Shown here: one piece after another, positions 430-24,874 of the stretch
Layout of the letters: every line of letters starts with the position of its first letter
Numbering within the stretch: position 1 is the first letter of the stretch
DNA from: a virus
DNA length: 25,511 nucleotides
Strand: one strand, 5' to 3'
IMG/VR virus record: IMGVR_UViG_3300032285_000996
Span: 1 to 25,511 of that record
Program-made: the position numbers and the translations under genes
Notes under the pieces: generated by a model
What the model was told of the DNA's origin: nothing
The model's input: only the letters and a program-made list of their open reading frames with translations
Database searches by the model: none

Positions 430-900
430 TTAATTAAATGTTTGAACGCCGAGGATTGAACTTAAATCAGCAGCCGATGTAGCATTTAATATCTTTGCAA
501 GTGCATCTTCGTCCACCCCTGGAGGTGTACCTGTTTGCATTACATTCTGGATTCTGCGCTGTGCATCGGATGCAGTTTCCTTAGCCTGAGTTTCCTCTGC
601 TGCTGGTTGCTGTACTCCGAACACATCGCCATACTCAGCAAGCCATGCGGACACGGCTTCTTCTGTAGTATCAATATCCTGTGGGATAAATGCTGCGACC
701 TTTGGGTTAATACCCTTTGCTGATAGAACATCCTTGACAGTACGCTGACGAGTCTGTGTCTTAAGTGTTGTCGCTTCTTGTTCAAGTTCTTTCAAACGCT
801 TTTCTAGCGTGCGATTTACCTTGCGTAGTTGCTTGACGACATCTTGTGGCTCATTGCCAAAGTCATCATCTTCGTCATCGTATTCGTAATTGGTAGCCAT
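430..900 (-). CDS. Capsid scaffolding protein
   Basis: This 156-residue protein is probably the internal scaffold that guides capsid assembly and then leaves the head. It has a very acidic N-terminus (YEYDDEDDDFGNEP), a charged predicted coiled coil at about residues 22-52 (QLRKVNRTLEKRLKELEQEA), a middle segment resembling other phage scaffolds (VKDVLSAKGINPKVAAFIP), and a low-complexity Ala/Glu/Gln tail. Its position immediately before the capsid gene supports the role. The start at 900 has GGGAG upstream at normal spacing. It could instead be a capsid-assembly protease cofactor, but no protease motif is visible. Confidence 0.78.
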   Translation of the reverse strand: MATNYEYDDEDDDFGNEPQDVVKQLRKVNRTLEKRLKELEQEATTLKTQTRQRTVKDVLSAKGINPKVAAFIPQDIDTTEEAVSAWLAEYGDVFGVQQPAAEETQAKETASDAQRRIQNVMQTGTPPGVDEDALAKILNATSAADLSSILGVQTFN

Positions 901-1022: not shown

Positions 1023-2372
1023 TTATATTGAACTTTCTGTCTTAAGTGAACCAGCACTTAAACCAGATGAACCACCAAAGCGTGCTGCTTCACGGGCTGC
1101 ACGCTTCTGTGACTGCATAAGTTCTGCTTGGTCTTGTGCAAGAACTGCCTTAACTGCTGAGATGTCGTTGTAATTCTCGCCTTCAATCTGTGCGAGTTTT
1201 GACTGTGAGCCAGCAAGTTGATATGCCTTTTGGAAGTCTGTCTTAAGTGTTGTTAAATCTTCTTTGCCTGAGGCATTAACAAATGATTCAGCAACGCCTG
1301 CACCAAAGTTCTTGAAGCCTGCATTTTGTGCAGCAGCACCAATTTCAGCAGCACGAACTTCTTTGTTAATAAGGTCCATGCCAATCTTAGGGTCAAGTAA
1401 CCATGTGATTGCTGTAGGTGTTGAGATGTTGTAATAGTTTTGAAGTGCTGCAAGTACATCTGTATTCTTTGATACTCTGTCAGCAGCGATAGATACACGA
1501 TTCTCAAACTCAGCAGGTGATACTTCATTAGCAATCCACTGACCTTTGGCTTGAGTGGTTCCTAACACTTTGGCATCTAAACCGTAGGCACGCAATGTCT
1601 GGTCATACCCGCGTTCCATGTTAATGTAAGTTGATTCATTAACTGCCAAACCTTTTGCACGCAATGCATCCATACCAGGAAAACGGTCTTTGTATGCCTG
1701 TGTACCAATGAGGTTAATCTTAATCTGAGCAGCAGTTAAATCATCTTTAATGTAACCATCAATAGTATCTGCCAATGAATCAAGTCCAGCCATCTTAAGA
1801 CTTGCTTTGAAATCTTCTAGGGCTGTAGTTGTAGCACCTCGGGTTTGTGTCTTAAGTAAATCAGCGTTTGTCTTTGCTGTATTAAGACCTGATTGATATG
1901 TGGCATACGCCATTTGGTCAGTAAATTTTGTACCATCTGTGGCTGTATATGTTGTAACATTACCGCCACCTGCAGGAGGATTATCTCCATTTCCACCATT
2001 TGATGGAGGATTATTCCCATTGCTACTACTGACTGTGCCAAAATCTTTGTAAAGTTTCCACTCTCCAGCAATATAAGACCAGTGTGTTCCTGCTGGTGCT
2101 TCGTATGGAGGAGTAGTTCCGTTACCAGTTAAGCGTTCATTTTGAATACGAGCAAGGCGTTCTGCTGCTGTTTCTTTTGGTGCAGGTTCAGTAGGTGTGG
2201 TTTGTAAACCAGCATTTGCATACTCAAGATTAGATACTTGGTTAGTTACGCTTGAGCCAACATTGCCACCGTAGCCTATTTTTTGTGCATCAGCATCTGC
2301 TTTTTTAGCAGCAATCTTAAACTGCTCATCAACGGTTGTTTTTAAACTTGATTCGTAATCTGGGTCGCGCAT
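1023..2372 (-). CDS. Virion-associated protein of unknown function (449 aa)
   Basis: No enzyme motif is recognised. The N-terminal third is low complexity: a Lys/Ala/Asp helix, a Pro/Glu-rich linker, then an Asn/Gly/Pro-rich stretch around residues 112-137. The remaining two thirds are alpha-helical with the pattern AYKDRFPGMDALRAKGLAVN, a tyrosine-rich stretch (ERGYDQTLRAYGL), and VSPAEFENRVSIAADRV. I associate this pattern with structural or ejection proteins of uncultured tailed phages, from memory only. The start overlaps the stop of the preceding gene as TAATG, implying coupled translation. The placement between portal and scaffold is consistent with a protein packed in or near the head vertex. 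Three copies of CTTAAGAC fall in frame as Leu-Lys-Thr, including one at the C-terminus. Confidence 0.72.
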   Translation of the reverse strand: MRDPDYESSLKTTVDEQFKIAAKKADADAQKIGYGGNVGSSVTNQVSNLEYANAGLQTTPTEPAPKETAAERLARIQNERLTGNGTTPPYEAPAGTHWSYIAGEWKLYKDFGTVSSSNGNNPPSNGGNGDNPPAGGGNVTTYTATDGTKFTDQMAYATYQSGLNTAKTNADLLKTQTRGATTTALEDFKASLKMAGLDSLADTIDGYIKDDLTAAQIKINLIGTQAYKDRFPGMDALRAKGLAVNESTYINMERGYDQTLRAYGLDAKVLGTTQAKGQWIANEVSPAEFENRVSIAADRVSKNTDVLAALQNYYNISTPTAITWLLDPKIGMDLINKEVRAAEIGAAAQNAGFKNFGAGVAESFVNASGKEDLTTLKTDFQKAYQLAGSQSKLAQIEGENYNDISAVKAVLAQDQAELMQSQKRAAREAARFGGSSGLSAGSLKTESSI

Positions 2373-10411: not shown

Positions 10412-10478
10412 GTTTTCCTCCGCTATAAGAGCGCTAATTTGTAAGTGAGCAGTTTTAAATCATGCTCAGGATTATGAA

Positions 10479-10667
10479 TTACTTGCTTCCGCGAGTACCT
10501 GACGGTTGCTTTGTGAACATCGTTGTAGATGCCTTAGGCTTACCTCCCTTAGGAGTTGTACCTTTTGTTGGTTGCTGCACATTTGCCTTAGCGTTTCCAC
10601 CCTGATTAGCAGGCTTTGATGCCTTGCCTGGCTGGTTCTTTGGCTTTACTGGGTTTCCAAATGCCAT
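10479..10667 (-). CDS. Small basic low-complexity protein (62 aa)
   Basis: The composition is mostly Lys, Gly, Pro, Asn, Gln and Thr (NPVKPKNQPGKASKPANQGG) with a strong positive charge and no predicted fold. The start has AGGAGGTG immediately upstream, a strong ribosome site, so the gene is real despite its simplicity. Next to the portal gene, a basic disordered protein could bind packaged DNA or act as a minor head component; this is inference only. Confidence 0.65.
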   Translation of the reverse strand: MAFGNPVKPKNQPGKASKPANQGGNAKANVQQPTKGTTPKGGKPKASTTMFTKQPSGTRGSK

Positions 10668-10683
10668 ATTTTTTCACCTCCTC

Positions 10684-12501
10684 CTAAGCGGGTAAGCGTT
10701 TGATAAGAGATGCCTGTAAATTAGGCTCTCCCCGTTGGGTTAAACCTGCTAGTAGCGATTGAATATCAGGACGACCACCTGGTGATAGTTGTCCCGCTGC
10801 CACTCCTTGCATACGACCTGTAGGCGATAAGCCTGGAGGTAGTTGTTCTTGCCCCGCACCTGCTGGAACCGCACCTGGTTGCCCTTGTTCGGGACTTACT
10901 TCTGCAGGGGTAGCAGCAGGAGGGGGATTCTGAGGAGCCCACGCCTTTTGAATAGCAACTTCAATTGCTGTTCCCTTTTGGCGTTCGCTAATTACGGTAG
11001 AAAGTTTCATCAAAATGTCTGATGGGTCTTGACCTTGTGATGCAAGTGCTGGAATTGCTTGTGCATAAGAGGCAATTGCCTGCTTCATTGCATCGCGTAA
11101 TTCTTCTGTCTCAACTTTTTCTTCTTCTTGTGTTGCATTGAAGTTGAATGGCATCTGACGGCGTAGGAAATCGCGGGAAATCAACTTATCTCCGCGAGCC
11201 TGTAGACCAAATACCAACGCACGGTTGGGGTCAAGTCCTGCCATCAATCCATATTGCACATCAACTGTGTAATCGCCAGAAATATCTCGCGCTGGCTTGT
11301 ACTTAATGTTGTACGGCGTACCGTTAAAGATACCTTCTAGTGTCTTTTCTTGGTTGCCAAAAACTTTTTCATCTGTCTTAAGTGCTAAAGCCATCAACTC
11401 TGTAAATGCACGGGCAAACATTGAGTGTGCTGTCTTGATTTGTGTATCAAAACCACCCATAAGCGCCTGCACACCACGACCTGTGATGATAGAAGCATCT
11501 GAATTACCAGTGCGTGTCTCTGGATAGCGTGAACCTAAGCGTAGTTCGCTTTCAAGAACACCCTGCTGTTGGAAAGTATTTGCAGGTAGTTCAAGCGGGA
11601 CTCGGCGAATTTCGTTAGGCTTGCTGGAACGCATAATTGCATCTGGTCCAAGGGCTAACTCCTGTACATCCTGAGGCATTGCGATAGGTGCCTGTACTGA
11701 TTTGGTTGCTGCTTCCAAAGAAAGTAGCGCATAACGAGCCTTGGCAACCTGAATTGCTAGTACATCGTCAAACTGTCCTCGTGATTGGTCATCAATAGAT
11801 GGTCGGCGTACAACGCGAATCATACATTCGCCCATTGGATTAGCAGCGCGGTCAAGAACTAGGTTGCTACGCTGTGGCAAGAAGATAACATCTTGGTCTT
11901 TATCGTGGAAACGCACGACCTCAGACATTGTTGACTGTGTATTCTTGTCATAAATCAAATGTGCAATCTCTGGATATTGAGACATCAGTTCCTGAGTTGG
12001 CTTCATAATGCGTTGGAAGAACATAATGCAACGACCAAAGCGGTCAATTACAGGGTATGCACCCAATGAATCCATGAAACGGATGCGTGGCATCTGTGCA
12101 TCGTAATCAACTTCAACCTGTGCAGGTACAAATCCGTAGGTTACATAACGGTCTGCAGCATTAAACATCTGTGACTGTAAATCAGAGAAGTCAACAATGC
12201 CGTTAACAATTTCTTCACGCTTATCAGCCTTCTTACGAACTGTCTCAGACACCATAGATGTTGAGTTACAGTTAAACGCAGGCAGTGGTGCAATTGTTTC
12301 TGCAAGGTCACGGGCTGCAATATCTACCATATTCGCAACGATAGGATTCTCAAAAGGACCATCGGGGAATAAATCTGGGTAGACATCACGCATCTTGCCT
12401 TGACGAACCAAAAGAACTTGATTCATTCTCTGGTCACGGTCATCGTACATACGGCGATAACGGTCGTATGTATCTTTGATTTCGTCAATAGATAGCGCCA
12501 T
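10684..12501 (-). CDS. Portal protein
   Basis: This 605-residue protein should form the dodecameric ring at the head vertex through which DNA is packaged and ejected. The N-terminal helix set (IDEIKDTYDRYRRMYDDRDQ) leads to GPFENPIVANMVDIAARDLA and PLPAFNCNS, then the central wing region with RYVTYGFVPAQVEVDYD and FMDSLGAYPVIDRFGR, and a Pro/Gln/Gly-rich C-terminal tail. It is immediately downstream of the large terminase, the usual order. I place the start at ATG 12501 because AGGAGG sits at proper distance from it. The in-frame GTG at 12507 overlaps that ribosome site and is unlikely. Confidence 0.85.
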   Translation of the reverse strand: MALSIDEIKDTYDRYRRMYDDRDQRMNQVLLVRQGKMRDVYPDLFPDGPFENPIVANMVDIAARDLAETIAPLPAFNCNSTSMVSETVRKKADKREEIVNGIVDFSDLQSQMFNAADRYVTYGFVPAQVEVDYDAQMPRIRFMDSLGAYPVIDRFGRCIMFFQRIMKPTQELMSQYPEIAHLIYDKNTQSTMSEVVRFHDKDQDVIFLPQRSNLVLDRAANPMGECMIRVVRRPSIDDQSRGQFDDVLAIQVAKARYALLSLEAATKSVQAPIAMPQDVQELALGPDAIMRSSKPNEIRRVPLELPANTFQQQGVLESELRLGSRYPETRTGNSDASIITGRGVQALMGGFDTQIKTAHSMFARAFTELMALALKTDEKVFGNQEKTLEGIFNGTPYNIKYKPARDISGDYTVDVQYGLMAGLDPNRALVFGLQARGDKLISRDFLRRQMPFNFNATQEEEKVETEELRDAMKQAIASYAQAIPALASQGQDPSDILMKLSTVISERQKGTAIEVAIQKAWAPQNPPPAATPAEVSPEQGQPGAVPAGAGQEQLPPGLSPTGRMQGVAAGQLSPGGRPDIQSLLAGLTQRGEPNLQASLIKRLPA

Positions 12502-14950: not shown

Positions 14951-15041
14951 CCCTCAAATGTTGAGAATGGCGAGGAATGAGAGTAGAAATCTCCTAGTGC
15001 TTAAGTCACAAGGATTTAAGCCGATGACAGGAGAACAAGAA

Positions 15042-15680
15042 ATGACAGCAACAACAGCACTTAAGACAGGAAAGACAAGCAAGGCGGAGGCACTCTCAAC
15101 AATTACAAAAGCCCTTGAACAGGCTCATGAAATCATCAAGGCAGAAACAGGAGCGCCCCGCGCAACTCTTCTTGTGACCCGCGACCTCAAGGGTCGTAAG
15201 GGACATTTCACACCTTTCACACCGTGGACAACAGGCGAGGAGTCTTTCTCAGAAATCGCGTTTAACCTTGAGCACTTCACAACACCAGAAGAACTATTGA
15301 GCACCTTGTTGCATGAGGTAGCGCACTCAATTAATCACATGAATGGAATCGAGGACTGCTCATCGAACCAATACCATAACGCCAAATTTAAGACACAAGC
15401 CGAGGCGTTAGGTCTTAAGACACTAGAAATCAAGGGCAAGGGACACGCTGCAACCGAACTCACCGAACTAGGCGCTAAGCGATGGAAGAAAGCCCTCACC
15501 ATCCTAAGCAACGCTTTCGACCTCACCGCACTAGGCGGAGAACAGGCGAAGAAGAAGGGGCGCAATACCAACCTAATCAAGGCAATGTGCGAATGTGAGA
15601 ATGTAATCCGCCTCTCTCGCGGTGTCCTTGAATCAGGCGTGACATGCAACCAATGTGAGGAAGTGTTCAAGGAGGCTTAA
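15042..15680 (+). CDS. SprT-like zinc metallopeptidase
   Basis: This 212-residue protein carries the zinc-protease motif HEVAH at residues 91-95, followed by a third-ligand-type segment NQYHNAKF (110-117), and a C-terminal zinc ribbon (CEC at 183-185 and CNQC at 202-205). This is the SprT/Spartan order: peptidase helix then zinc ribbon. Family members cleave proteins bound or crosslinked to DNA; a phage role could be clearing host DNA-bound proteins. I choose ATG 15042, preceded by ACAGGAG at eight bases, over an in-frame ATG at 14913 that has no ribosome site and would place the operator repeats in coding sequence. It is the first gene of the rightward cluster. Its TAA stop lies in a CTTAAGACAG motif. 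Confidence 0.8.
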   Translation: MTATTALKTGKTSKAEALSTITKALEQAHEIIKAETGAPRATLLVTRDLKGRKGHFTPFTPWTTGEESFSEIAFNLEHFTTPEELLSTLLHEVAHSINHMNGIEDCSSNQYHNAKFKTQAEALGLKTLEIKGKGHAATELTELGAKRWKKALTILSNAFDLTALGGEQAKKKGRNTNLIKAMCECENVIRLSRGVLESGVTCNQCEEVFKEA

Positions 15681-15785
15681 GACAGAAACAGCCCCCGCAC
15701 CTCAAGCGGGCGCAGGTTCAAGACCTAGCGGGGGCACTAGCAAGGCGAGAGAGTCTCACCTTGTGACTTAAGACAGGAGAAAGAA
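15676..15785 (+). promoter_or_regulatory. Compound intergenic element 1 (leader of the 102-aa gene)
   Basis: In order: CTTAAGACA containing the upstream stop; an outer inverted repeat GCCCCCGC (15691-15698) with GCGGGGGC (15728-15735) around a 29-base loop; GGGCACTAGCAAGGC; a hairpin of ten pairs with one mismatch, CAAGGCGAGA with TCTCACCTTG (15741-15763); then TTGTGAC joined to TTAAGACAGGAGAAA and the ATG. The second half closely matches element 2. It could be a terminator-plus-leader or a regulated RNA structure; there is no U-run after the GC-rich stem. Confidence 0.6.
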
Positions 15786-16094
15786 ATGAACGCAATCCGT
15801 AAGCAATGGAACGAGGCTCAAGAGGGAGGCTTTGGCACCCCTACAACATGGCGCATGAGTCAGCAGATACGGGCACAGAAAGACGAACATGAGTCATTTC
15901 ATGACTTAATGCAGATTATCCCCGCAGAATTAAGAAATGAAGTCATCGCCCTATGGGTCAGAGGAACTCAAGCCTCAGCAGATGAGGCGTATAACCGCCG
16001 ATTACTTAAGTCAGAACTCAGCGAATTAGATTTCAACGAGACTCAGAACATAGCGCACGAGGCTTGGAAGAAGTTGCTCAAGATTAGTGCTTAA
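15786..16094 (+). CDS. Unknown protein (102 aa)
   Basis: A charged, mainly helical protein, 102 residues, with no recognised motif. The N-terminal part is RKQWNEAQEGGFGTPTTWRM, and the C-terminal half is likely two helices (DEAYNRRLLKSELSELDFNE, then NIAHEAWKKLLKIS). The start has the conserved cluster leader TTAAGACAGGAGAAAGAA before ATG. The stop codon is the TAA of another CTTAAGACAT motif, and in-frame ACTTAAGTC near 16005 encodes Leu-Lys-Ser. It is probably an early accessory protein, judging only from the location among small genes. Confidence 0.7.
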   Translation: MNAIRKQWNEAQEGGFGTPTTWRMSQQIRAQKDEHESFHDLMQIIPAELRNEVIALWVRGTQASADEAYNRRLLKSELSELDFNETQNIAHEAWKKLLKISA

Positions 16095-16223
16095 GACATA
16101 AGCGCAAAAGTGTGACCAGTCACACAGCCCTAATCCCTTGACAGGAGGCGCGAGTTCATGACTCAATTAGGGCACAAGCAAGGCAGGAAATACTTGCCTT
16201 GTGTATTAAGACGGGAGAAACAA
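16090..16223 (+). promoter_or_regulatory. Compound intergenic element 2 (operator, TTGACA box, nested hairpins, leader)
   Basis: In order: CTTAAGACATA with the upstream stop; the palindrome GTGTGACCAGTCACAC (16110-16125); TTGACA at 16138-16143; a perfect outer inverted repeat GCCCTAAT (16127-16134) with ATTAGGGC (16166-16173) whose 31-base loop holds an AGGAGG (16143-16148 region) and an ATG at 16158; GGGCACAAGCAAGGC; hairpin CAAGGCA (16179-16185) with TGCCTTG (16195-16201); then TTGTGTA, TTAAGACGGGAGAAA and ATG 16224. No good -10 follows TTGACA at 17 bases. The architecture parallels element 1 in its second half and element 3 in its first half. Confidence 0.6.
16110..16125. promoter_or_regulatory. 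Perfect 16-base operator-like palindrome GTGTGACCAGTCACAC
   Basis: The half-sites GTGTGAC and GTCACAC are exact reverse complements with a CA centre. Related sites at 14903, 14933 and 17112 all precede plus-strand transcription units, and at 14933, 16110 and 17112 a TTGA(C/G)A box follows after 9-12 bases. Spacing between TGTGA and TCACA is four bases, not the six of CRP-family sites, so a different regulator is expected. Confidence 0.6.
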
Positions 16224-16427
16224 ATGCTTAAGTTTTATGTAGTAAAAGAGGACGGCACTCACGCCATTGTTAAGTTCGAAACTCTCAAGGAGTTTTGGAA
16301 GTACACCTCTAAGAATTACATTAAAGAGATTCAAACCCTAGACAATGACACCACTTATTCATTCGGAAGCCTAACTCAACCAACAGTGAGCGACCCTATC
16401 CGTTCATTACTTAAGACAGGAGAATAA
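16224..16427 (+). CDS. Unknown protein (67 aa; alternative 89-aa form)
   Basis: A 67-residue protein of mixed beta/alpha character (LKFYVVKEDGTHAIVKFETL, then KEFWKYTSKNYIKEI) with no recognised family. The ATG at 16224 has the cluster leader GGGAGAAACAA upstream and matches the other starts. An in-frame ATG at 16158 has a stronger AGGAGG at nine bases and would add 22 basic residues (GHKQGRKYLPCVLRREKQ). Both may be used, giving two forms, or the upstream one may be a regulatory leader. The C-terminus ends at LLKTGE within a CTTAAGACAGGAGAA motif that also supplies the ribosome site of the next gene. Confidence 0.65.
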   Translation: MLKFYVVKEDGTHAIVKFETLKEFWKYTSKNYIKEIQTLDNDTTYSFGSLTQPTVSDPIRSLLKTGE

Positions 16428-16430
16428 AAA

Positions 16431-16760
16431 ATGACTTACACCATAAAAGAAACCGACTACATTTTTGCCGTAGCCGATAACTTTGCCACCGATTACACGC
16501 TAGTAACCGACAACGATTCAGATTCTTACCACGAAATTATGGACATGGAAGAACTAAAAGCGGGCAACATGAGCGGACTCAGTGACCGACTTAAGACAGA
16601 GTTTGAAACCTACATTAGCGAGGTAGTAGAGCGCGAACGCGAGAACGGACACGAGGCGGGCGCTTTGCTTATCTCTCAGTTACTTATCGGCATGGGTTCA
16701 ACCACTTTCGACATGATTGCCCGCCATTACTTAGCACTTAAGACAGAAAGCGAGGCTTAA
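16431..16760 (+). CDS. Unknown acidic protein (109 aa)
   Basis: A 109-residue acidic protein, Asp/Glu-rich, with probable helices in the C-terminal half (SDRLKTEFETYISEVVERER, then ALLISQLLIGMGSTTFDMIA). No catalytic motif is seen. The acidity and size recall small phage inhibitors of DNA-binding host proteins, but nothing specific supports that. The start follows ACAGGAGAATAAAAA three bases after the preceding stop. The gene contains two in-frame CTTAAGACA copies (RLKTEF, ALKTES), and its stop TAA lies in a third, CTTAAGACATG, which contains the start of the next gene. Confidence 0.68.
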   Translation: MTYTIKETDYIFAVADNFATDYTLVTDNDSDSYHEIMDMEELKAGNMSGLSDRLKTEFETYISEVVERERENGHEAGALLISQLLIGMGSTTFDMIARHYLALKTESEA

Positions 16761-16763
16761 GAC

Positions 16764-16874
16764 ATGAGCACCGATACATTATTTGGAATCGCTATTAGCA
16801 CCGCTGTAATCGTATGCCTTGCGGTTGCTTTCTCGCCAGAGTTCACCAACTGGCTCATAAGTTTGGGGTTTTAA
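16764..16874 (+). CDS. Small single-pass membrane protein (36 aa)
   Basis: A 36-residue protein with one hydrophobic segment covering roughly residues 5-23 (TLFGIAISTAVIVCLAVAF) and a short C-terminal amphipathic tail. The ATG begins three bases after the upstream stop, inside the motif CTTAAGACATG, so initiation is probably by coupling. It lacks its own Shine-Dalgarno. It is too small for a typical holin, though size does not exclude membrane-lesion, superinfection or antiholin roles. The next two genes overlap or abut it, and one also encodes a membrane protein. Confidence 0.55.
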   Translation: MSTDTLFGIAISTAVIVCLAVAFSPEFTNWLISLGF

Positions 16875-16875
16875 A

Positions 16876-16947
16876 ATGGAAACTATCTGCGGAGACTGCC
16901 TTATCCCACTCAACCAATGCCAACATGCGAAGGAGTACAAGCGATGA
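16876..16947 (+). CDS. Tiny zinc-knuckle-like peptide (23 aa)
   Basis: The 23-residue product has CGDC at positions 5-8 and CQH at 15-17, a CxxC...CxH arrangement able to bind one zinc. The ATG starts one base after the preceding stop, and the stop overlaps the next start as ATGA, the coupling pattern used elsewhere in this cluster. There is no clear Shine-Dalgarno. The cysteine spacing and exact junctions favour a real gene, but its shortness leaves doubt. Confidence 0.45.
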   Translation: METICGDCLIPLNQCQHAKEYKR

Positions 16948-17105
16948 AACTAACAAGACGAGGCAAGATAGTCAGAGCAATCTTTATTTATGTCTTAATA
17001 CTGACAGCAATTATCGGAGTATCAAACGCACTAGGTGTGTGGGATGTATCCGAGTCATGTCTAGTAGAGCAAGTCGGATGTCCCGCTGGATACCCTCTGC
17101 CTTAA
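16944..17105 (+). CDS. Small membrane-anchored protein (53 aa)
   Basis: A basic N-terminus (MKLTRRGKIVR) precedes a hydrophobic segment at about residues 12-30 (AIFIYVLILTAIIGVSNAL), then a short outside domain with two cysteines (SCLVEQVGC) that could form a disulfide. This is a signal-anchor topology with the C-terminus outside. ATG 16944 overlaps the tiny upstream gene as ATGA; an in-frame upstream start at 16917 lacks support. The stop TAA lies in CTTAAGACATA. With the 36-residue protein it forms a small membrane pair of unknown role. Confidence 0.6.
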   Translation: MKLTRRGKIVRAIFIYVLILTAIIGVSNALGVWDVSESCLVEQVGCPAGYPLP

Positions 17106-17198
17106 GACATAGTGTGACCAACGCCACACACAAAATGCTTGACACGCTATGCCACCAAGTGGCAGAGTAATAACTACCAACAACGACAGGAGAAACAA
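17101..17198 (+). promoter_or_regulatory. Compound intergenic element 3 (operator-like site, TTGACA box, hairpin, leader)
   Basis: CTTAAGACATA with the upstream stop is followed by GTGTGACCA and CACAC (17112-17129), TTGACA at 17139-17144, the hairpin GCCAC-CAA-GTGGC at 17151-17163, and the leader GACAGGAGAAACAA before ATG 17199. The order matches element 2, including the distance of about ten bases from palindrome to TTGACA. The best -10 candidate (CAGAGT, spacer 18) is poor, so if this is a promoter it may need the phage sigma factor or an activator. Confidence 0.55.
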
Positions 17199-17345
17199 AT
17201 GCAAAGACTAACAGCAAAGCAAGCGACCATAACAGTCACAATTAAATTGGGCAACGACATAGAGAGTTTCTTTTTCTATGACTCAGCCTCATACGCACAG
17301 ATTATTAACGCTATCAACAACGCACAACGACAGGAGGGAAACTAA
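17199..17345 (+). CDS. Unknown small protein (48 aa)
   Basis: A 48-residue protein with likely beta strands at the N-terminus (KQATITVTIKLGNDIESFFF) and one helix (ASYAQIINAINNAQRQ). No family is recognised. ATG 17199 is chosen because GACAGGAGAAACAA precedes it exactly as at other starts in this cluster; the frame is open further upstream without a ribosome site. The end of the gene overlaps the ribosome site of the next gene (GACAGGAGGG). Confidence 0.6.
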   Translation: MQRLTAKQATITVTIKLGNDIESFFFYDSASYAQIINAINNAQRQEGN

Positions 17346-17346
17346 C

Positions 17347-17640
17347 ATGGCACTACCAGAGCAAACACTTGAAGCATTAACCAACGGACACAACCACATG
17401 GAGTTCAACGAGGACGGACACATGACCAGTGCCAGCGGGTCAGGCGTGGACTTATACATTCTTGTCTCACTTGTATCTTGGATTAAGTTAGAACTTAAGA
17501 CAGGAATGAAGATGACTAGCAAAGGTAGCACGCTTAAGAAGGCTAACGAAATGCTGGGCACAAACTATCGCCGTAAGGAACAGGCGTTAGCCCACCTTGA
17601 GGGACTGCTATCAGTACTTAAGACAGAGGAGGAGAACTAA
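17347..17640 (+). CDS. Unknown protein (97 aa)
   Basis: A 97-residue protein with a His/Asn-rich N-terminal region (NGHNHMEFNEDGHM), a helix (LYILVSLVSWIKLELKTG) and a Lys-rich C-terminal half (STLKKANEMLGTNYRRKEQA) that could bind nucleic acid. No motif assigns a function. The start has ACAGGAGGGAAACTAAC upstream. Two CTTAAG copies fall in frame as Leu-Lys. The final LKTEEEN is encoded over CTTAAGACAGAGGAGGAG, which doubles as the ribosome site of the next gene, whose ATG overlaps the stop as TAATG. Confidence 0.65.
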   Translation: MALPEQTLEALTNGHNHMEFNEDGHMTSASGSGVDLYILVSLVSWIKLELKTGMKMTSKGSTLKKANEMLGTNYRRKEQALAHLEGLLSVLKTEEEN

Positions 17641-17774
17641 TGGCTACTGTATGGAAGTCATCAGTCACAACCAACATGACCAAGCACCTCACCCAACAAG
17701 AATTGTCAGACCTCGTGGCTAAGTTAGATGATGTAGTCATGATGGTGTGCGAGTCGTATGAGATTGGGGCTTAA
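17640..17774 (+). CDS. Unknown small protein (44 aa)
   Basis: A 44-residue product with one probable helix (TQQELSDLVAKLDDVVMMV) and a single Cys. It is identified by the strong GGAGGAG before the TAATG-coupled start and by ending exactly on the TAA of a CTTAAGACATG junction motif, like several neighbours. A small helical phage protein of this size often works by binding a larger partner; nothing here identifies one. Confidence 0.55.
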   Translation: MATVWKSSVTTNMTKHLTQQELSDLVAKLDDVVMMVCESYEIGA

Positions 17775-17777
17775 GAC

Positions 17778-17924
17778 ATGAAAGATAAATGGCTTATCAC
17801 ATTAGAGATTGAAACTTATGACGGCGACCCTAAAGGTTGGGACTGGAATTACATTTTTACAGGCGAGGACGAAGCAAGAGTAATCACCTCAGAGTTTAAG
17901 GGACGAGTACTCACAGATGAATGA
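17778..17924 (+). CDS. Unknown small acidic protein (48 aa)
   Basis: A 48-residue product with the beta-rich sequence KWLITLEIETYDGDPKGWDW and an acidic second half (FTGEDEARVITSEF). The ATG lies in CTTAAGACATG three bases after the previous stop and has no separate Shine-Dalgarno. The pattern of strand, turn and helix could form a small compact fold. It overlaps the next gene by eight bases in another frame. Confidence 0.55.
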   Translation: MKDKWLITLEIETYDGDPKGWDWNYIFTGEDEARVITSEFKGRVLTDE

Positions 17925-18066
17925 GACGGAACTTAAGCAGACATACAGCGCAATAAAGAGAGCAAGGTCACAGCGAAATAACACCACAAATAACGAGGAC
18001 TTTGACTACTGGCAAGGCATACTAGAGCAGTACCAAAACAAACTACAGACAGGAGAAAACAAATGA
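17917..18066 (+). CDS. Unknown small basic protein (49 aa)
   Basis: A 49-residue charged helical protein (TELKQTYSAIKRARSQRNNT, then DFDYWQGILEQYQNKLQ). The start lies within the end of the previous gene; the stop overlaps the next start as ATGA, and its last codons (TGENK) encode the leader ACAGGAGAAAACAA of that gene. An in-frame CTTAAG near the start encodes Leu-Lys. The precise overlaps support it although its ribosome site is weak. Confidence 0.5.
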   Translation: MNETELKQTYSAIKRARSQRNNTTNNEDFDYWQGILEQYQNKLQTGENK

Positions 18067-18308
18067 CACACACAATTATGGCTGGGGCTATGAGCAAGGC
18101 AACCACAGCATACGACAAGGACTTTGACCTCACCATTGACGGCGAAGAAGTAAGAGTTATCCTGCACTGGGATGACCTTGACGGATACGAACTGACATGG
18201 CTGGACAAGGAAGGCAGATTCATTACATCACCTGATTGGCTTGATGAAGTAAATGATTTCTGTCTTAAGTTAGATAACACCGAGCCACATAGCAAGGTGT
18301 TGTTATGA
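18063..18308 (+). CDS. Unknown acidic protein (81 aa)
   Basis: An 81-residue acidic protein with alternating hydrophobic and acidic residues (DFDLTIDGEEVRVILHWDDL, then YELTWLDKEGRF), consistent with a small beta sheet, and a C-terminal helix (PDWLDEVNDFCLKLD). The ribosome site ACAGGAGAAAACAA is perfect for this cluster. It ends with an ATGA overlap with the next gene. DNA-mimic or inhibitor function would fit the charge but is speculation. Confidence 0.68.
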   Translation: MTHTIMAGAMSKATTAYDKDFDLTIDGEEVRVILHWDDLDGYELTWLDKEGRFITSPDWLDEVNDFCLKLDNTEPHSKVLL

Positions 18309-18499
18309 TTCTTATGGAGTGCAGAAGTTGCGGTGTCATGGTGCAGAACCCAAAGACATTGAACTACATGGCGGAAAGATGCACGCCATGCGAGATGAAG
18401 TTCAGAGAACTGGCGAACCGCGCCATTGACACCTACCTAGATGAGAAGGCAGAGGCAGAACGCGATGCTCAACTTAAAACTGATTCACCCGCACGCTAG
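18305..18499 (+). CDS. Small zinc-finger protein (64 aa)
   Basis: Residues 6-9 are CRSC and residues 26-29 are CTPC, a two-knuckle CxxC...CxxC zinc site of the treble-clef or zinc-ribbon kind, followed by a long charged helix (KFRELANRAIDTYLDEKAEA). Zinc-finger proteins of this size in phages usually bind nucleic acid or a host protein. It is joined to the upstream gene by ATGA, and its last 35 bases overlap the start of the transglycosylase gene. Confidence 0.68.
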   Translation: MILMECRSCGVMVQNPKTLNYMAERCTPCEMKFRELANRAIDTYLDEKAEAERDAQLKTDSPAR

Positions 18500-18908
18500 A
18501 TTATGGATTGTTACAGTACTTATTTTGGGATTTATTTTTGTACTTAAGACACCAGCAAGGCAGTATGTATTGCCCGAACATGGCAGACTTATCGCCTACT
18601 ATCAGAACGATTACCAACGCTACGCGATTGACAAGTTGATACAGCAAGACAACCTTGAACAGTATCCATGTCTCTATGAATTGTGGACTAAGGAATCTAA
18701 CTGGCGACCAAAGGCTATGAATAAACATGGCGGTGCTATGGGTATTGCACAACTGAAACCCTCAACATGGCGTGTGCTTAAGTTGAAGCCCACGACCAAC
18801 GGCTACCGACAGGTAGATGCTGGACTCAAGTACATTGACAGACACTATGGTGAAACAGGTGGAGTGTGCAGAGCGTACGCCCATTGGTTAGCGGAAGGTT
18901 GGTATTAA
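18465..18908 (+). CDS. Membrane-anchored lytic transglycosylase (SLT-like)
   Basis: The 147-residue protein has an N-terminal hydrophobic segment at residues 13-27 (LWIVTVLILGFIFVL) and then an SLT domain: catalytic Glu77 in WTKESNW, followed by KHGGAMGIAQLKPSTW and AGLKYIDRHYG, the conserved lysozyme-like goose/SLT order. It cleaves the glycan strands of peptidoglycan. The anchor suggests export with the catalytic domain outside the membrane, as in phage SAR or anchored lysins, or a role in cell-wall penetration. ATG 18465 is preferred over 18441 because AGAGG lies upstream at suitable spacing. The stop TAA falls in ATTAAGACATG, which starts the next gene. Location in the small-gene cluster, away from virion genes, favours lysis or wall remodelling over a tail role. 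Confidence 0.78.
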   Translation: MLNLKLIHPHARLWIVTVLILGFIFVLKTPARQYVLPEHGRLIAYYQNDYQRYAIDKLIQQDNLEQYPCLYELWTKESNWRPKAMNKHGGAMGIAQLKPSTWRVLKLKPTTNGYRQVDAGLKYIDRHYGETGGVCRAYAHWLAEGWY

Positions 18909-18911
18909 GAC

Positions 18912-19160
18912 ATGACACACGAAGAACTATTGGCAAAGGTAAATCAAGGAATAGAATCTTCTAATTATTCTAACTCTCTTGGTGAGTGGCACGCAGATAG
19001 TTTTCTTTCTGCCCTGCGTGCAGTAGTGGAATTGCATAAGCCAAAGAACTACATCATTAAAGGGTTTGAAGTTACAGAGTCTTGGTGTACTGCTGACTCT
19101 GAATCACTAACTCCATACCCCTGCTCAACTATTCAGGCTATTGAGAAGGAGTTAGAGTGA
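18912..19160 (+). CDS. Unknown protein (82 aa)
   Basis: An 82-residue protein starting THEELLAKVNQGIE, with SALRAVVELHKP in the middle and a C-terminal segment containing two Cys. The N-terminal pattern (EELL followed by LRAVVELH) is one I associate with small actinophage proteins of unknown function. The ATG lies three bases after the previous stop in a TTAAGACATG junction. The stop overlaps the WhiB start as ATGA, so the two are probably co-translated. Confidence 0.68.
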   Translation: MTHEELLAKVNQGIESSNYSNSLGEWHADSFLSALRAVVELHKPKNYIIKGFEVTESWCTADSESLTPYPCSTIQAIEKELE

Positions 19161-19498
19161 AGCCACAGTTCCACAGAGTAATCAGCGTTACTCATAGCAA
19201 GAACAGATACAACAAGGGCTTGATTGGTTATGTCTTAAGATACAACCAACGGCTATGGGACAAGGCAGTTTGCAGGGGTATAGACACAGAGATTTTCTAC
19301 CCAGCACAGGAGTTGTTCACTCGTGACGAGGAGCGCATGTTTGAGAAGATGTGTGTTGAGTGCCCCGTTATGATGGCTTGCCTTGAGTGGGGCTTAGCCC
19401 ATGAAAGGTACGGAGTATGGGGCGGGACGACACCACCCATGCGACACAAGATTAGAGCAAGGATTGGTTGGGCTTTGACAGAACCAAAACTTGGGTGA
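19157..19498 (+). CDS. whiB: WhiB-family iron-sulfur transcription regulator
   Basis: The 113-residue protein has the four cluster-binding cysteines at 39, 66, 69 and 75 (C...CVEC.....C) and the family signature GVWGG at 86-90, followed by a basic tail (RHKIRARIG). WhiB proteins bind a 4Fe-4S cluster and contact region 4 of the primary sigma factor to alter transcription; phage versions such as the one in mycobacteriophage TM4 can block host WhiB function. The N-terminal 35 residues are basic and longer than in minimal WhiB proteins. It is the last gene of the rightward cluster, ATGA-coupled to its neighbour and followed by a terminator. It is the main evidence that the host is an actinobacterium. 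Confidence 0.93.
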   Translation: MKPQFHRVISVTHSKNRYNKGLIGYVLRYNQRLWDKAVCRGIDTEIFYPAQELFTRDEERMFEKMCVECPVMMACLEWGLAHERYGVWGGTTPPMRHKIRARIGWALTEPKLG

Positions 19499-19602: not shown

Positions 19603-20136
19603 TTAAAGGTTTAATTCCTTAGCAAGCATGAACACTTCATCACTTAAGTCATCAAGAGTTCCATCGTTGTAGATGACATGGCTAAACATGTAGTTATCCA
19701 TAGCGTGCTCAGACTTATGACCATTGGCTGGCTGGTGATTGTGTCTATTGATACGCCATAGCGAACCACTCAGTTGCTTGATTGCATTAGCCTCATTGGG
19801 ATAACGCACATCAGAGATAACAACTCTATCTTCATGGCTTAAGTCACGAAGCGCCATCTTAATCCACACATCATCGCCAAACATTGAACGACCTACCTCA
19901 GTACCAAAGACTTGCATAAGTCTACGCACCTCAGGGTTTTGCTTGGCTACATCCCAACCATAGTCATCCACATACTCAGACAAACGAGTGATGCTATCCA
20001 ACTTAGGGTTCAGTGTCATCAGTGCATGACGGATTGGGTCAGCAAAAGATACTCTGCGGTATCCGTAATTAAGACATAACAATTCAGCGGTGCTGTCCTT
20101 ACCACTGCGTGCGTATCCACTTAAACCAATAATCAT
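19603..20136 (-). CDS. Deoxynucleoside monophosphate kinase
   Basis: This 177-residue P-loop kinase begins IGLSGYARSGKDSTAELL with Walker A at residues 6-14 (GYARSGKDS), a conserved VSFADPIRHAL substrate segment, QVFGTEVGR near 75-83 and VVISDVRYPNEA near 105-116. These match the phage T4 gp1-like dNMP kinases that phosphorylate dNMPs to dNDPs for replication. It is the last gene of the leftward replication module and starts by ATGA overlap with a 41-residue gene. Confidence 0.85.
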   Translation of the reverse strand: MIIGLSGYARSGKDSTAELLCLNYGYRRVSFADPIRHALMTLNPKLDSITRLSEYVDDYGWDVAKQNPEVRRLMQVFGTEVGRSMFGDDVWIKMALRDLSHEDRVVISDVRYPNEANAIKQLSGSLWRINRHNHQPANGHKSEHAMDNYMFSHVIYNDGTLDDLSDEVFMLAKELNL

Positions 20137-20908: not shown

Positions 20909-21287
20909 TCTTTAATTGCCTCATTGCCTCTAGTAAGTTATCAACTGTGATGAGATACCCCTTGCTTTTATTCGGGGGAATCTCGCAGGTAATCTCTCTA
21001 CCAAAGTTCTTTATTGCGTAGTGTACATGGTCAGTAGGTACCATCAGCACACCCTTCTCAAGTACGAACGCCCAGTAAGCAGCCTCAGTCACCATCAAAC
21101 CTGATGCTTCCCATGATTGTGTCTTAAGAAACCAACACTCAACTTCTATGTAGAGGTTACCTGTCTTGTTCCATTTTCTGTCACGCTTTACTTCTATTGT
21201 CTTGCCTTCGGTAAGTAGTTCTTCAACTAACTTCTCACCTTTACGCCCGTATCCAAAGTCTAAATCAAAGGATGAATTTTTAGCCAT
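20901..21287 (-). CDS. Putative PD-(D/E)XK nuclease-like protein (128 aa)
   Basis: The N-terminal half reads FGYGRKGEKLVEELL followed by TIEVKRDRKWNKTGNLYIE. A helix with an acidic residue, then a strand with E-V-K (Glu32, Lys34), is the minimal active-site pattern of the PD-(D/E)XK fold. The rest (SWEASGLMVTEAAYWAFVLE) resembles small phage nuclease-like proteins. It is wedged between primase and sigma genes with short overlaps on both sides. It may act in recombination or DNA processing; catalytic competence is not certain. Confidence 0.6.
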   Translation of the reverse strand: MAKNSSFDLDFGYGRKGEKLVEELLTEGKTIEVKRDRKWNKTGNLYIEVECWFLKTQSWEASGLMVTEAAYWAFVLEKGVLMVPTDHVHYAIKNFGREITCEIPPNKSKGYLITVDNLLEAMRQLKNE

Positions 21288-22807: not shown

Positions 22808-23525
22808 TGTTGTTCTCCTGATTCGCTGCTGCTTGTGCTGCTTGCCAGTACAGTGCATAGTAATTCTCATCGTAGGCAAAGCGCTTCATGTGCTTTGCGA
22901 TAGCACCAGTGTGTGCATGTACAGGTACACCTGCTGCTTTAAGTTTACGGAAGAACACAATGTCCTCACCCACAAACTTCTCACCAACATTCTCAATCTC
23001 TGCAAACATAGACTGACCTGGAAACTTCTGTCTTAAGGCAGGAACCACTGACTTATGCATGAGCGTAAGCCCAAGCCCTGCATTATCTACCTTGATAACT
23101 TGGTCCTTAGGTAGCGGGTGCTTGTACTTAATCTCATACTCATTGTCAGTCTCATCAAACAAGGCAGGCATAGGTTGCATGAGTGATGACTCCATCTGCT
23201 TAGAGATAAAGTAAACACCCGATACAACTGGGCGTGCAATCTTGTCTGCTGTATTCCACAACAGTTCAAGGATGTCAAGGGTTAACACGATGTCAGAGTC
23301 AACCCATAGCAACCAGTCTGTCTTAATACTGTCAGCCCACATGTCGAACAAGGCTTGGCGTTGGCGACCAATCTGATTACCTTGCACACGCACAGCATTG
23401 TGAATACCAATGTTGCGTGTTGGTGCAGTAATCGTGGTGTACATCAGACCTTCGGTGAACTTACCGTCAGTCAAACCATTGTCACACCAACCAATAGATA
23501 ATGTTTCTTTACTACTGTGTGCCAT
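22791..23525 (-). CDS. GT-A glycosyltransferase (244 aa)
   Basis: The protein has the GT-A nucleotide-sugar motif DSD at residues 76-78 in DWLLWVDSDIVLTLD, a conserved helix (NQIGRQRQALFDMW), an acceptor-side motif GEDIVFFRKLKAAG (186-199) and a histidine-rich end (VHAHTGAIAKHMK). This resembles family 2-like phage glycosyltransferases that modify DNA, proteins or cell-surface sugars. The target is unknown; lying among DNA-metabolism genes, DNA or a host surface component are both possible. ATG 23525 is preferred, with CGAGG upstream; 23543 is an alternative. It overlaps both neighbours. Confidence 0.78.
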   Translation of the reverse strand: MAHSSKETLSIGWCDNGLTDGKFTEGLMYTTITAPTRNIGIHNAVRVQGNQIGRQRQALFDMWADSIKTDWLLWVDSDIVLTLDILELLWNTADKIARPVVSGVYFISKQMESSLMQPMPALFDETDNEYEIKYKHPLPKDQVIKVDNAGLGLTLMHKSVVPALRQKFPGQSMFAEIENVGEKFVGEDIVFFRKLKAAGVPVHAHTGAIAKHMKRFAYDENYYALYWQAAQAAANQENNNGPQG

Positions 23526-23826: not shown

Positions 23827-24085
23827 CCTTTGCGGTGAAAGTAACAGTTCTTCCGTCAATGTAAGATTCGAACTGTTCTTCCGTGAGGTCCATGAACTCA
23901 CCAGTCTTTTTATTTTTCCAAACAAGTGCCCTCCAACCAGCGGTGTATGTAAGTACACGGGGTGTAAATTTAATTTGTGTTTCAATGTCAGTCTTAAAAC
24001 GCTCTGTCTTAATAACGAACTCGTCTCCGACTTCGCTGGCTGGTACCTCGCCACCATTTTCTATTACTGATAAATCCCAATCCAT
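23783..24085 (-). CDS. Unknown protein (100 aa)
   Basis: A 100-residue mixed beta protein: GDEFVIKTERFKTDIETQIK, TYTAGWRALVWKNKKTGEFM and GRTVTFTAKDGSSTKQ. No motif points to a function. The start at 24085 has AAGGAG at good spacing. Together with the following helical gene it lies between helicase and glycosyltransferase, so a replication accessory role is a guess. Confidence 0.65.
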   Translation of the reverse strand: MDWDLSVIENGGEVPASEVGDEFVIKTERFKTDIETQIKFTPRVLTYTAGWRALVWKNKKTGEFMDLTEEQFESYIDGRTVTFTAKDGSSTKQVEGTSGS

Positions 24086-24094
24086 TTGTATCTC

Positions 24095-24874
24095 CTAAGG
24101 TTGTCCAACATCTAGTACCTGCATACTTGCAGGGTCATACGAAAGCCACACTGGTGTGCTTCCGTTAGCATCGGCGGGTCCGTAACGATTCTTAACAGCA
24201 CACACACCCATCGTAGAGATTTGGTTAATGACTGTAAGTATCAGACTCGGAGTCTGAGCGACCTTGCCATGTAGTGCTTTTTGTGGTGGGCAAGGGTTAC
24301 CAGGTACCCCCTCAGAGGTGTGGTGACAAACCACAACCGCAGCACCAGTCTCCCGTGCCCACCACTTAAGTTCCTTCATCAGTGTACGCAAACCACCCCA
24401 CTCATCTTGCGAATCCATGGTTACATCCACTGCATTGTCAAGCACAATCAAACGAACATCCTCACCAAGTCGTTCACGAGTAGCAAGTACTGCATCCTCA
24501 ATGTCCTTAAGTGTTGGTGATGAATCAAACTCCCAATAAATGTGGTCAGCAGGCTTGAGCATTTGCGCTGCCCAGTCTCTGTCCATTTCCATTAGAGGTT
24601 CTACTTCTGCTTGTTGCTTTCCCGTCAGCAGTGCAAGCAAACGAAGGCTCATCGTATGTGAGTGTGTATCTGCAGAGATGTAAAGAGTTGGAACTTTTGC
24701 ACGGACTGCCAAGGACAAAGCAAGCGTTGACTTGCCTGCCCCTGGCGGTCCAGCAATCATGCTCACCTCGCCGTAACGGATTGCTATTTGTTGAGCAGCG
24801 AAGGAGTGCCAGACCACAGGAAGGGTTGCACCCCCTCGTGATTCTGTCTTAATAGCACGGCTGAGTAAGCGCAT
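24095..24874 (-). CDS. RecA/DnaB-like ATPase (probable replicative helicase)
   Basis: A 259-residue RecA-fold ATPase with Walker A GPPGAGKST at 42-50, a conserved LYISADTHSH motif, Walker B LIVLDN at 142-147, and sensor-like VVVCHHTSEG at 180-189. A single RecA domain without the DnaB N-terminal domain is common for phage helicases and for Sak4-type recombinases; the ISAD and CHHT motifs fit DnaB/KaiC-like better than Sak4 as I read it. It probably works with the split primase downstream. The C-terminal part contains NRYGPADANGS, a likely DNA-contact loop. Confidence 0.75.
   Translation of the reverse strand: MRLLSRAIKTESRGGATLPVVWHSFAAQQIAIRYGEVSMIAGPPGAGKSTLALSLAVRAKVPTLYISADTHSHTMSLRLLALLTGKQQAEVEPLMEMDRDWAAQMLKPADHIYWEFDSSPTLKDIEDAVLATRERLGEDVRLIVLDNAVDVTMDSQDEWGGLRTLMKELKWWARETGAAVVVCHHTSEGVPGNPCPPQKALHGKVAQTPSLILTVINQISTMGVCAVKNRYGPADANGSTPVWLSYDPASMQVLDVGQP

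Follow-up and report, generated by a model that had tools for sequence, protein, structure and literature searches.

The virus record IMGVR_UViG_3300032285_000996, whose 25,511 bases are referred to here as the window, carries a short repeated word, TTAAGACA, which most likely represents dispersed DNA sites and not a translation cassette. The word is probably the site of the phage's own SprT-like protein (phrog_6361), an autoregulated repressor for which the dispersed copies would be stoperator-like. This reading draws on the enrichment and dispersal of the word, its selection beyond codon use, the different words of related lineages, the tracking of protein alleles with word type, sites in front of the gene and co-occurrence across phyla, and it makes the protein look like an overlooked gene regulator in phages of many bacteria. 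Four points are inferred: binding of the word by the protein itself, a reading function of its C-terminal tail, repression as the effect, and a stop of transcription at the dispersed copies. A common phage gene, now labelled as a protease or a transcription elongation protein, thereby gains a testable function; if the reading is true, the binding word can be predicted from the protein tail, and the arrangement shows how packed phage genomes carry regulatory sites within coding sequence. In the open-licence literature searched, no report linking a SprT-like protein with these words was found.

The left part of the window holds packaging genes and others on the minus strand and the right part replication genes, likewise on the minus strand, while a block of small plus-strand genes occupies positions 15042-19498; WhiB-like and sigma-factor genes are also present. 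A near-identity search of phage records with the first 25,000 of the 25,511 bases gave no match. The terminase has matches in 248 named records, all less than 60% identical (up to 50.6% among those listed), and no phage record of at least 60% identity was returned by this search, which may omit very near records.

TTAAGACA is present in 30 copies, both strands counted, compared to an expectation of 1.25 (mean of 100 dinucleotide shuffles, shuffle maximum 6). The top-enriched 9-mer of the window is CTTAAGACA (23 versus 0.5); at each length from 7 to 10, the words with the strongest enrichment are likewise fragments or extensions of CTTAAGACA and its neighbours. The coding strand holds 26 of the 30 copies, and 25 are situated to the right of position 14,388, i.e. 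in the non-structural part outside the left block with the packaging genes. Six copies overlap a stop codon, one is intergenic in front of a Shine-Dalgarno-like sequence, 19 are located within genes on the coding strand and four are antisense. With the exception of a copy at 23029, which reads TTA-AGA-CAG, the in-gene sense copies (18 of 19) read NTT-AAG-ACA. The positions of all copies, together with the SprT-like gene and a variant site in front of it, are as follows.

15042..15680, plus strand: SprT-like gene (phrog_6361), whose product, with a zinc-ribbon-like tail at the C terminus, is the proposed site reader; PF10263, phrog_6361, allele tracks motif type
15000..15008, plus strand: variant site CTTAAGTCA, about 33 bases 5' of the SprT-like gene start, candidate autoregulatory operator
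15061..15068, plus strand: TTAAGACA within the SprT-like gene
15388..15395, plus strand: TTAAGACA within the SprT-like gene
15415..15422, plus strand: TTAAGACA within the SprT-like gene, part of GTCTTAAGACA
15677..15684, plus strand: TTAAGACA, its TAA ending the SprT-like gene
15768..15775, plus strand: TTAAGACA, intergenic, running into ACAGGAG, then ATG at 15786
16091..16098, plus strand: TTAAGACA, TAA is the stop at 16094
16411..16418, plus strand: TTAAGACA near the 3' end of open reading frame (ORF) 16224-16427, running into ACAGGAG, then ATG at 16431
16591..16598, plus strand: TTAAGACA in gene
16738..16745, plus strand: TTAAGACA in gene
16757..16764, plus strand: TTAAGACA(TG), stop 16760 and start 16764
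17102..17109, plus strand: TTAAGACA, stop 17105
17495..17502, plus strand: TTAAGACA in gene
17618..17625, plus strand: TTAAGACA in gene, near the gene end
17771..17778, plus strand: TTAAGACA(TG), stop 17774 and start 17778
18544..18551, plus strand: TTAAGACA in gene
18905..18912, plus strand: TTAAGACA(TG), stop 18908 and start 18912
16991..16998, minus strand: TTAAGACA antisense to plus gene
18261..18268, minus strand: TTAAGACA antisense to plus gene
19231..19238, minus strand: TTAAGACA antisense to the WhiB-like gene
20069..20076, plus strand: TTAAGACA antisense to minus gene
21120..21127, minus strand: TTAAGACA sense in minus gene
23029..23036, minus strand: TTAAGACA sense in minus gene, read TTA-AGA-CAG
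23319..23326, minus strand: TTAAGACA sense in minus gene
24005..24012, minus strand: TTAAGACA sense in minus gene
24845..24852, minus strand: TTAAGACA sense in the DnaB-like helicase gene
11374..11381, minus strand: TTAAGACA sense in the portal gene
1848..1855, minus strand: TTAAGACA sense in minus gene, left block
1239..1246, minus strand: TTAAGACA sense in minus gene, left block
1038..1045, minus strand: TTAAGACA sense in minus gene, left block
757..764, minus strand: TTAAGACA sense in minus gene, left block

When the window genes were subjected to 60 synonymous codon shuffles, a mean of 4.25 and a maximum of 9 in-gene copies of TTAAGACA resulted, compared to 24 observed, and in 10 of 10 phages tested the in-gene copies of the word outnumber those of every synonymous shuffle. 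Since the in-gene copies lie far above the shuffles, these counts indicate that the word is selected as a nucleic acid beyond codon use, wherever it is placed.

The best 80 of 389 terminase-related stretches were obtained, those longer than 10 kb could be sorted into types, and the comparison then covered 33 genomes (G001-G032 and the window). The repeated word differs between them: TTAAGACA is found in 11 genomes including the window, GTTTAAAC in 13 (27 to 58 copies each) and GTCTAAAC in G008 (36 copies), with terminases 79 to 97% identical to that of the window. G032, a fragment, has none of the words. Seven further genomes are deep relatives, with terminase matches of 23 to 46% and no convincing one in G031; six of them carry CTTAAG-centred words, and G029 has no strong word. 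In the seven genomes charted, the sites crowd in the non-structural part, chiefly in the small-gene block beside the terminase. The orientation of TTAAGACA over the 11 related genomes is 290 sense to 67 antisense; GTCTAAAC in G008 displays little bias (20 to 16). TTAAGACA is accompanied by graded variants (TTAAGTCA, TTAATACA and ATTAAGAC), of which TTAAGTCA is 6.6-fold enriched in the window's clade, and these variants suggest a 10-base near-palindrome. GTTTAAAC amounts to 496 sites in 16 loci, where 10 are expected, with one-mismatch neighbours at chance and no graded variants; four copies fall within 185 bases at 6377-6561 of L029.

The SprT-like protein of the window matches PF10263 with 28.6 bits (cut-off 25.6) and carries the motif HEVAH, of which His91, Glu92 and His95 are invariant in 29 aligned sequences of the clade. 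The longer window ORF starting at 14913 matches phrog_6361 with 3.3e-44, and the B-type, Mano, Adolin, phiAsp2 and Alexa members match it with values from 6.7e-10 to 1.2e-57. When all called genes were compared by motif type, the HExxH allele of this protein was found in 11 of 11 TTAAGACA genomes and in none of the 15 of other types, and in addition in G024, G025, G026, G030 and G031, while a diverged allele without HExxH is present in 13 of 13 GTTTAAAC genomes and in G008; both alleles match phrog_6361. Neither allele was recognised in G027, G029 and G032, the records of G027 and G032 beginning close to the terminase, so that the gene is probably cut off there. Two further genes, presumably an amidotransferase-like and an amidoligase-like gene (G005, 10434-11237 and 11609-12442), are likewise confined to the GTTTAAAC/GTCTAAAC phages and absent from the TTAAGACA phages, and therefore the link between gene and word is ambiguous within the freshwater group alone.

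The link extends to phages outside this group, and the tail of the protein goes with the word. All 21 aligned members from genomes with GTTTA[A/C]AC or GTCTAAAC possess a KQ[TSG]TR tail, compared to 0 of 10 others. Across eight phage groups with the words, a phmmer comparison of ORFs of at least 80 residues identified the family ORF as the only ORF of Mica (268 ORFs) or Microdon (341 ORFs) that matches all seven other groups, the next best matching three; the query list of G005 was without the family gene because the gene caller had missed it. Predicted structures were fair (mean predicted local distance difference test scores of 82.5 and 77.0). The model lacking HExxH is still similar to SprT and its zincin relatives (abylysin, Z 7.7; SPRTN 6mdw, Z 7.5), although Z values of this size can reflect a common arrangement. 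Among solved structures, the sequence of the window protein had weak unrelated matches only (best E 0.13); its model had no Foldseek match with E ≤0.001, and the most sensible one was the zincin 3e11 (E 0.2).

Searches with tblastn detected the diverged allele in 87 named phage records, or in 163 with the Mano member as query. Among 24 named records with the family that were examined, 20 show an excess of GTTTACAC or GTTTAAAC. In 12 of 13 records of Arthrobacter, Microbacterium and Streptomyces type, no 8-mer ranks above GTTTACAC (13 to 43 copies, at most 0.22 expected), a set comprising cluster AZ and EH phages, the Streptomyces phages Microdon and Henoccus, and 4A, whose host is not stated and which is counted here. 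In Microdon, where the sites are spread across the whole 53 kb, at least four copies of GTTTACAC, in the form GTGTAAAC, stand one base 5' of an ATG (L332-L334). GTTTAAAC is at least 5-fold enriched in eight of ten proteobacterial or cyanobacterial records (Mica, Mano, MQ-4, PT1, ECO1230-10, Alexa, R5C and Pan1), in four of which it is not the top word. In WRightOn, FlowerPower and HaugeAnator, three of the named phages with a terminase match below 60%, the family profile finds nothing and the words are missing; their top 8-mers are CAAATCGG (6 counts, z 7.0), CATATATG (8 counts, 4 sites, z 11.0) and GCATATGC (8 counts, 4 sites, z 8.5), respectively, so that a modest palindrome excess also exists without the family.

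A further set of loci was drawn by alignment of the proteins of 11 named phages, yielding the best 80 of 525 viral relatives and 23 loci from bacterial genomes (including Microvirga, Sphingobium, Streptomyces, Arthrobacter, Geminisphaera and several metagenome-assembled genomes). After removal of 10 redundant entries from the 103 loci fetched, 93 remained. In these, GTTTAAAC ranks first of 7627 8-mers with at least 60 counts (289 versus 8.9), and the next non-overlapping word is GTTTACAC (155 versus 14.2). GTTTA[A/C]AC occurs in 92 of the 93 loci (18.4 expected), L458 being the sole locus without either word, whereas it occurs in 10 of 59 controls (19.5 expected), which were hand-picked from 120 contigs as not word-rich and without a family match and had been fetched by a match to CTTAAGACAGGAGA, not at random.

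The words are also situated in front of the gene itself. GTTTAAAC lies 15 to 19 bases 5' of the family gene start in Mano, Mica, MQ-4, PT1, ECO1230-10 and Alexa, and GTTTACAC 30 to 75 bases 5' of it in Adolin, Maureen, KeAlii, Microdon and Henoccus; in R5C no word is found within 130 bases before the gene. In 13 of 13 freshwater genomes of the GTTTAAAC type a copy is located within about 140 bases 5' of the gene, nine bases after TATAAT in G012 and G021. No other 8-mer is as frequent as GTTTAAAC in the 300 bases preceding the gene match (40 of 101 loci), and an exact word occurs in the approximately 300 bases 5' of the gene in 48 of 103 loci (40 GTTTAAAC, 8 GTTTACAC). This is the position in which an autoregulated operator would be expected.

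These observations may be combined as follows. The SprT-like protein, predicted to consist of a SprT/zincin-type fold and a basic zinc-ribbon-like tail, would bind TTAAGACA. As its gene is the first of the small-gene block and has a variant site just upstream, it is probably autoregulated, i.e. the protein would repress its own promoter. Bound at further copies, it could block or stop transcription across the non-structural block in the manner of cluster A stoperators, with the result that early genes would be shut down. At E 0.001, none of the 12 freshwater genomes tested (of 32 fetched) matches the integrase families PF00589 or PF00239, and the role in these phages is therefore probably one of temporal control. 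An in-frame NTT-AAG-ACA, or a TAA followed by ATG, would let sites fit in many places, and junctions between genes might be sites placed economically at gene ends. Beyond the window, phrog_6361 may constitute an unrecognised, phylum-spanning class of phage transcription regulators with a SprT fold and a zinc-ribbon reading head that coevolve with their site arrays, providing the missing immunity repressor where members are temperate, as in cluster AZ, probably in EH and in relatives residing in bacterial genomes, and turning from a protease into a pure DNA-binding protein in some lineages; this wider proposal is tentative, and we consider it somewhat less probable than its converse. The cluster AZ phage Powerpuff forms immune lysogens, with no identified repressor according to its description (PMC8758107), and the family could be a repressor candidate for such phages.

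Several points weigh against the proposed repressor. The sites have 8 to 10 base pairs and are mostly in-gene (19 of 30 within genes on the coding strand), unlike those of cluster A. The family members Eden, MW2 and Epa5 show no excess of either word; KQxTR is missing from the tails of Eden and MW2, the two of these three that were read, and in Eden TGTTCATA occurs seven times, once 5' of the SprT-like gene. The phiAsp2 member, which is nearest to the type of the window, is accompanied by a repeat of its own, TGACACTTCACAGTCA-like, with one copy just 5' of the gene. Among the TTAAGACA genomes the upstream site is mostly a variant (of 11 genomes, six have CTTAAGTCA or CTTAAGCCA, among them the window with its site at 15000, three a looser form and two an exact copy), and 55 of 103 loci have no exact GTTTAAAC or GTTTACAC in the approximately 300 bases 5' of the gene. 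Since the 93 loci were found through a peptide pattern on the tail, they tie the words to the KQxTR tail and test this association, not the whole family. Another shared protein could be too diverged to be detected by phmmer. Orientation is not uniform either: strand counts of GTTTACAC are biased in KeAlii (19 to 4), VroomVroom (15 to 3) and Cen1621 (24 to 4), but weakly or not at all in Percival (8 to 6), IAmGroot (7 to 11) and Microdon (21 to 22), and GTTTAAAC, being palindromic, has no orientation. Gene strands were checked only for the four annotated records, in which nearly all genes are on the plus strand (Zeta1847, 16 to 6; Maureen, 12 to 5; Adolin, 19 to 7; and Percival). Automatic strand counts for 12 high-GC (guanine plus cytosine) isolates (160 sense, 131 antisense) were disregarded in favour of these four, since simple ORF calling cannot be relied upon at high GC.

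In a preliminary description of the window, the word had been regarded as a gene-junction cassette combining stop, spacer and start for termination-reinitiation. The underlying positions are exact: the TAA within the motif is the stop of six plus-strand ORFs (15680, 16094, 16760, 17105, 17774 and 18908), TAAGACATG at the stops 16760, 17774 and 18908 supplies the starts 16764, 17778 and 18912, and the copies at 15768 and 16411 continue into ACAGGAG upstream of the starts 15786 and 16431. Beyond what had been noted there, the junction copies are a minority (6 of 30 overlap stops). The expectation that the motif would be kept at the junctions of relatives gave a mixed result, with retention at some and loss at others even though the gene is kept. 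Of the 10 other TTAAGACA-type genomes, 7 terminate the SprT-like gene with TAAGAC, 2 have the motif just 3' of the stop, and 1 shows neither. At the end of the transglycosylase gene, TAAGACATG is retained in 4 of 10 TTAAGACA-type genomes, and TAAGAC is found in 0 of 9 genomes of other word types, all 9 of which keep the gene. At junctions with few orthologues, TAAGAC is retained in 1 of 1 (16094), 2 of 3 (16760), 2 of 3 (17105) and 1 of 1 (17774). Variable retention and absence in other word types are as expected if the DNA site matters and its position is free to move. Because the genes are tiny and packed and sites recur every few hundred bases, a word containing TAA and followed by TG can serve as stop and start at no cost, and termination-reinitiation at the TAAGACATG junctions is possible as a secondary use of the sites. 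As the reason for the motif, the translation cassette is not supported, given the in-gene or antisense location of most copies, the GTTTAAAC or GTCTAAAC of sister phages and a motif type that follows one phage protein, while the likeness to dispersed actinophage motifs drawn in the same description was apt.

More generally, the words might act in the mRNA as a translation or processing signal, through termination-reinitiation or an RNA-binding protein. The coding-strand bias of the window's clade (290 to 67) and the copies at stops, starts and ACAGGAG would suit such a signal. However, GTTTAAAC is palindromic and exact, antisense copies occur, Microdon lacks strand bias, and by eye some sites follow a -10-like box or are flanked by -35- and -10-like boxes, so that we consider a role in mRNA improbable. 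Rather unlikely, too, is a SprT-like protein that acts as a switch by cleaving or displacing a separate word-binding repressor, in the way ImmA/IrrE-type proteases cleave or displace repressors. In favour of a switch, HExxH is present in each of the 29 sequences aligned from the window's clade and in those aligned from named phages, but all 11 aligned GTTTAAAC/GTCTAAAC freshwater members lack it and keep both tail and words, the word goes with the tail, and no other protein common to all eight groups was found.

The loss of the active site in one whole word-rich lineage likewise speaks against a DNA-dependent protease that is stationed at the words and clears proteins from phage DNA without regulating transcription, as do the sites before the gene itself, which suggest autoregulation; in spite of the predicted SprT/SPRTN-like fold (6mdw, Z 7.5, B-type model) and the HExxH of most members, we regard this as very unlikely. 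An equally slight chance is given to a host feature copied by the phage, such as a Chi site, a modification site or an overabundant HIP1-type motif. Like the site of an enzyme, GTTTAAAC is strictly palindromic, and words one mismatch away from it show no enrichment in the freshwater phages; yet the same words recur across Proteobacteria, Actinobacteria and others, both in phages and in genome loci, and near relatives with 82-88% identical terminases use different words.

Comparison with known systems places the repressor proposed here closest to, but not within, the described arrays. SprT/SPRTN members (PF10263) are described as DNA-protein crosslink proteases and are not known to have sequence-specific sites. 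The window protein resembles them in scoring above the Pfam cut-off and in its HEVAH, but differs in that words, tail and gene go together and in that one lineage has no HExxH. Cluster A stoperators are sites of 13-14 base pairs, mainly in short intergenic regions, and are proposed to hinder transcription (PMC9262239). Shared with them are many short dispersed sites (30 versus 1.25 in the window), a site near the promoter and the orientation bias of the window's clade (PMC9262239). On the side of the differences, the candidate protein here is SprT-like, and the 12 freshwater genomes gave no integrase match. Since the one-orientation rule fits the window's clade but not all phages and the in-gene placement differs, the sites were not filed as a cluster A stoperator system.

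The start-associated sequences (SAS) of cluster K mycobacteriophages and their extended form (ESAS) are repeats of unknown function that occur only in the non-structural half, where some of them overlap with stops and Shine-Dalgarno sites (PMC3203893, PMC12699233). The location in the non-structural part and the overlaps with stops and Shine-Dalgarno sites are thus common to both systems. However, the SAS consensus is GGGATAGGAGCCC, while the window's most enriched 7- to 10-base words come from CTTAAGACA and its neighbours. SAS typically stand 3-7 base pairs before starts; in the window, three TAAGACATG and two ACAGGAG copies out of 30 are near starts. Cluster K phages also carry a SprT-related gene. 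In Pixie (L470), gp78 matches phrog_1006 best and phrog_6361 weakly (0.00057), and at 6739-6938 an ESAS-like inverted repeat over TTGACA and a SAS are found directly 5' of this SprT-like gene. The pairing is possibly a parallel case in another SprT family; six SAS are present among 21 genes there.

With respect to possible hosts, the cultured 'Ca. Planktophila' phages E7 and F5 have about 39 kb, a GC content of 44.7-44.8% and whiB and sigma factor genes (PMC10202952). The group of the window fits freshwater 'Ca. Nanopelagicales' phages including E7 and F5 by description only.

Dulem virus 37 was not counted as a member, since its match is weak (5e-6) and is missed by the family profile; in this record (L299-L301), TTACAACCGA forms clusters at 30993-31253 and 50751-50815, one of these clusters lying just 5' of the SprT-like gene at 31444. 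The Arthrobacter phage VroomVroom (L314-L316) has a second enriched palindrome, TTCACGTGAA (12 counts, 6 sites), which we take to resemble parS. In the Bordetella phage MW2 and the Pseudomonas phage Epa5 (together L343-L348), CGCCCAGG (48 versus 8.7) and CCCTGGGC (53 versus 5.3) are strongly over-represented, respectively. Among the freshwater genomes, the window's clade is rich in CTTAAG, and G008, G011, G012, G021 and G032 (L055, L068, L073, L064 and L063, in part) contain 0 copies. Many palindromic hexamers are absent or nearly so in G001-G032 and the window, e.g. AAGCTT with 0 copies in most genomes, where about 7 to 23 are expected, and 3 in G025, a scarcity which suggests restriction avoidance.

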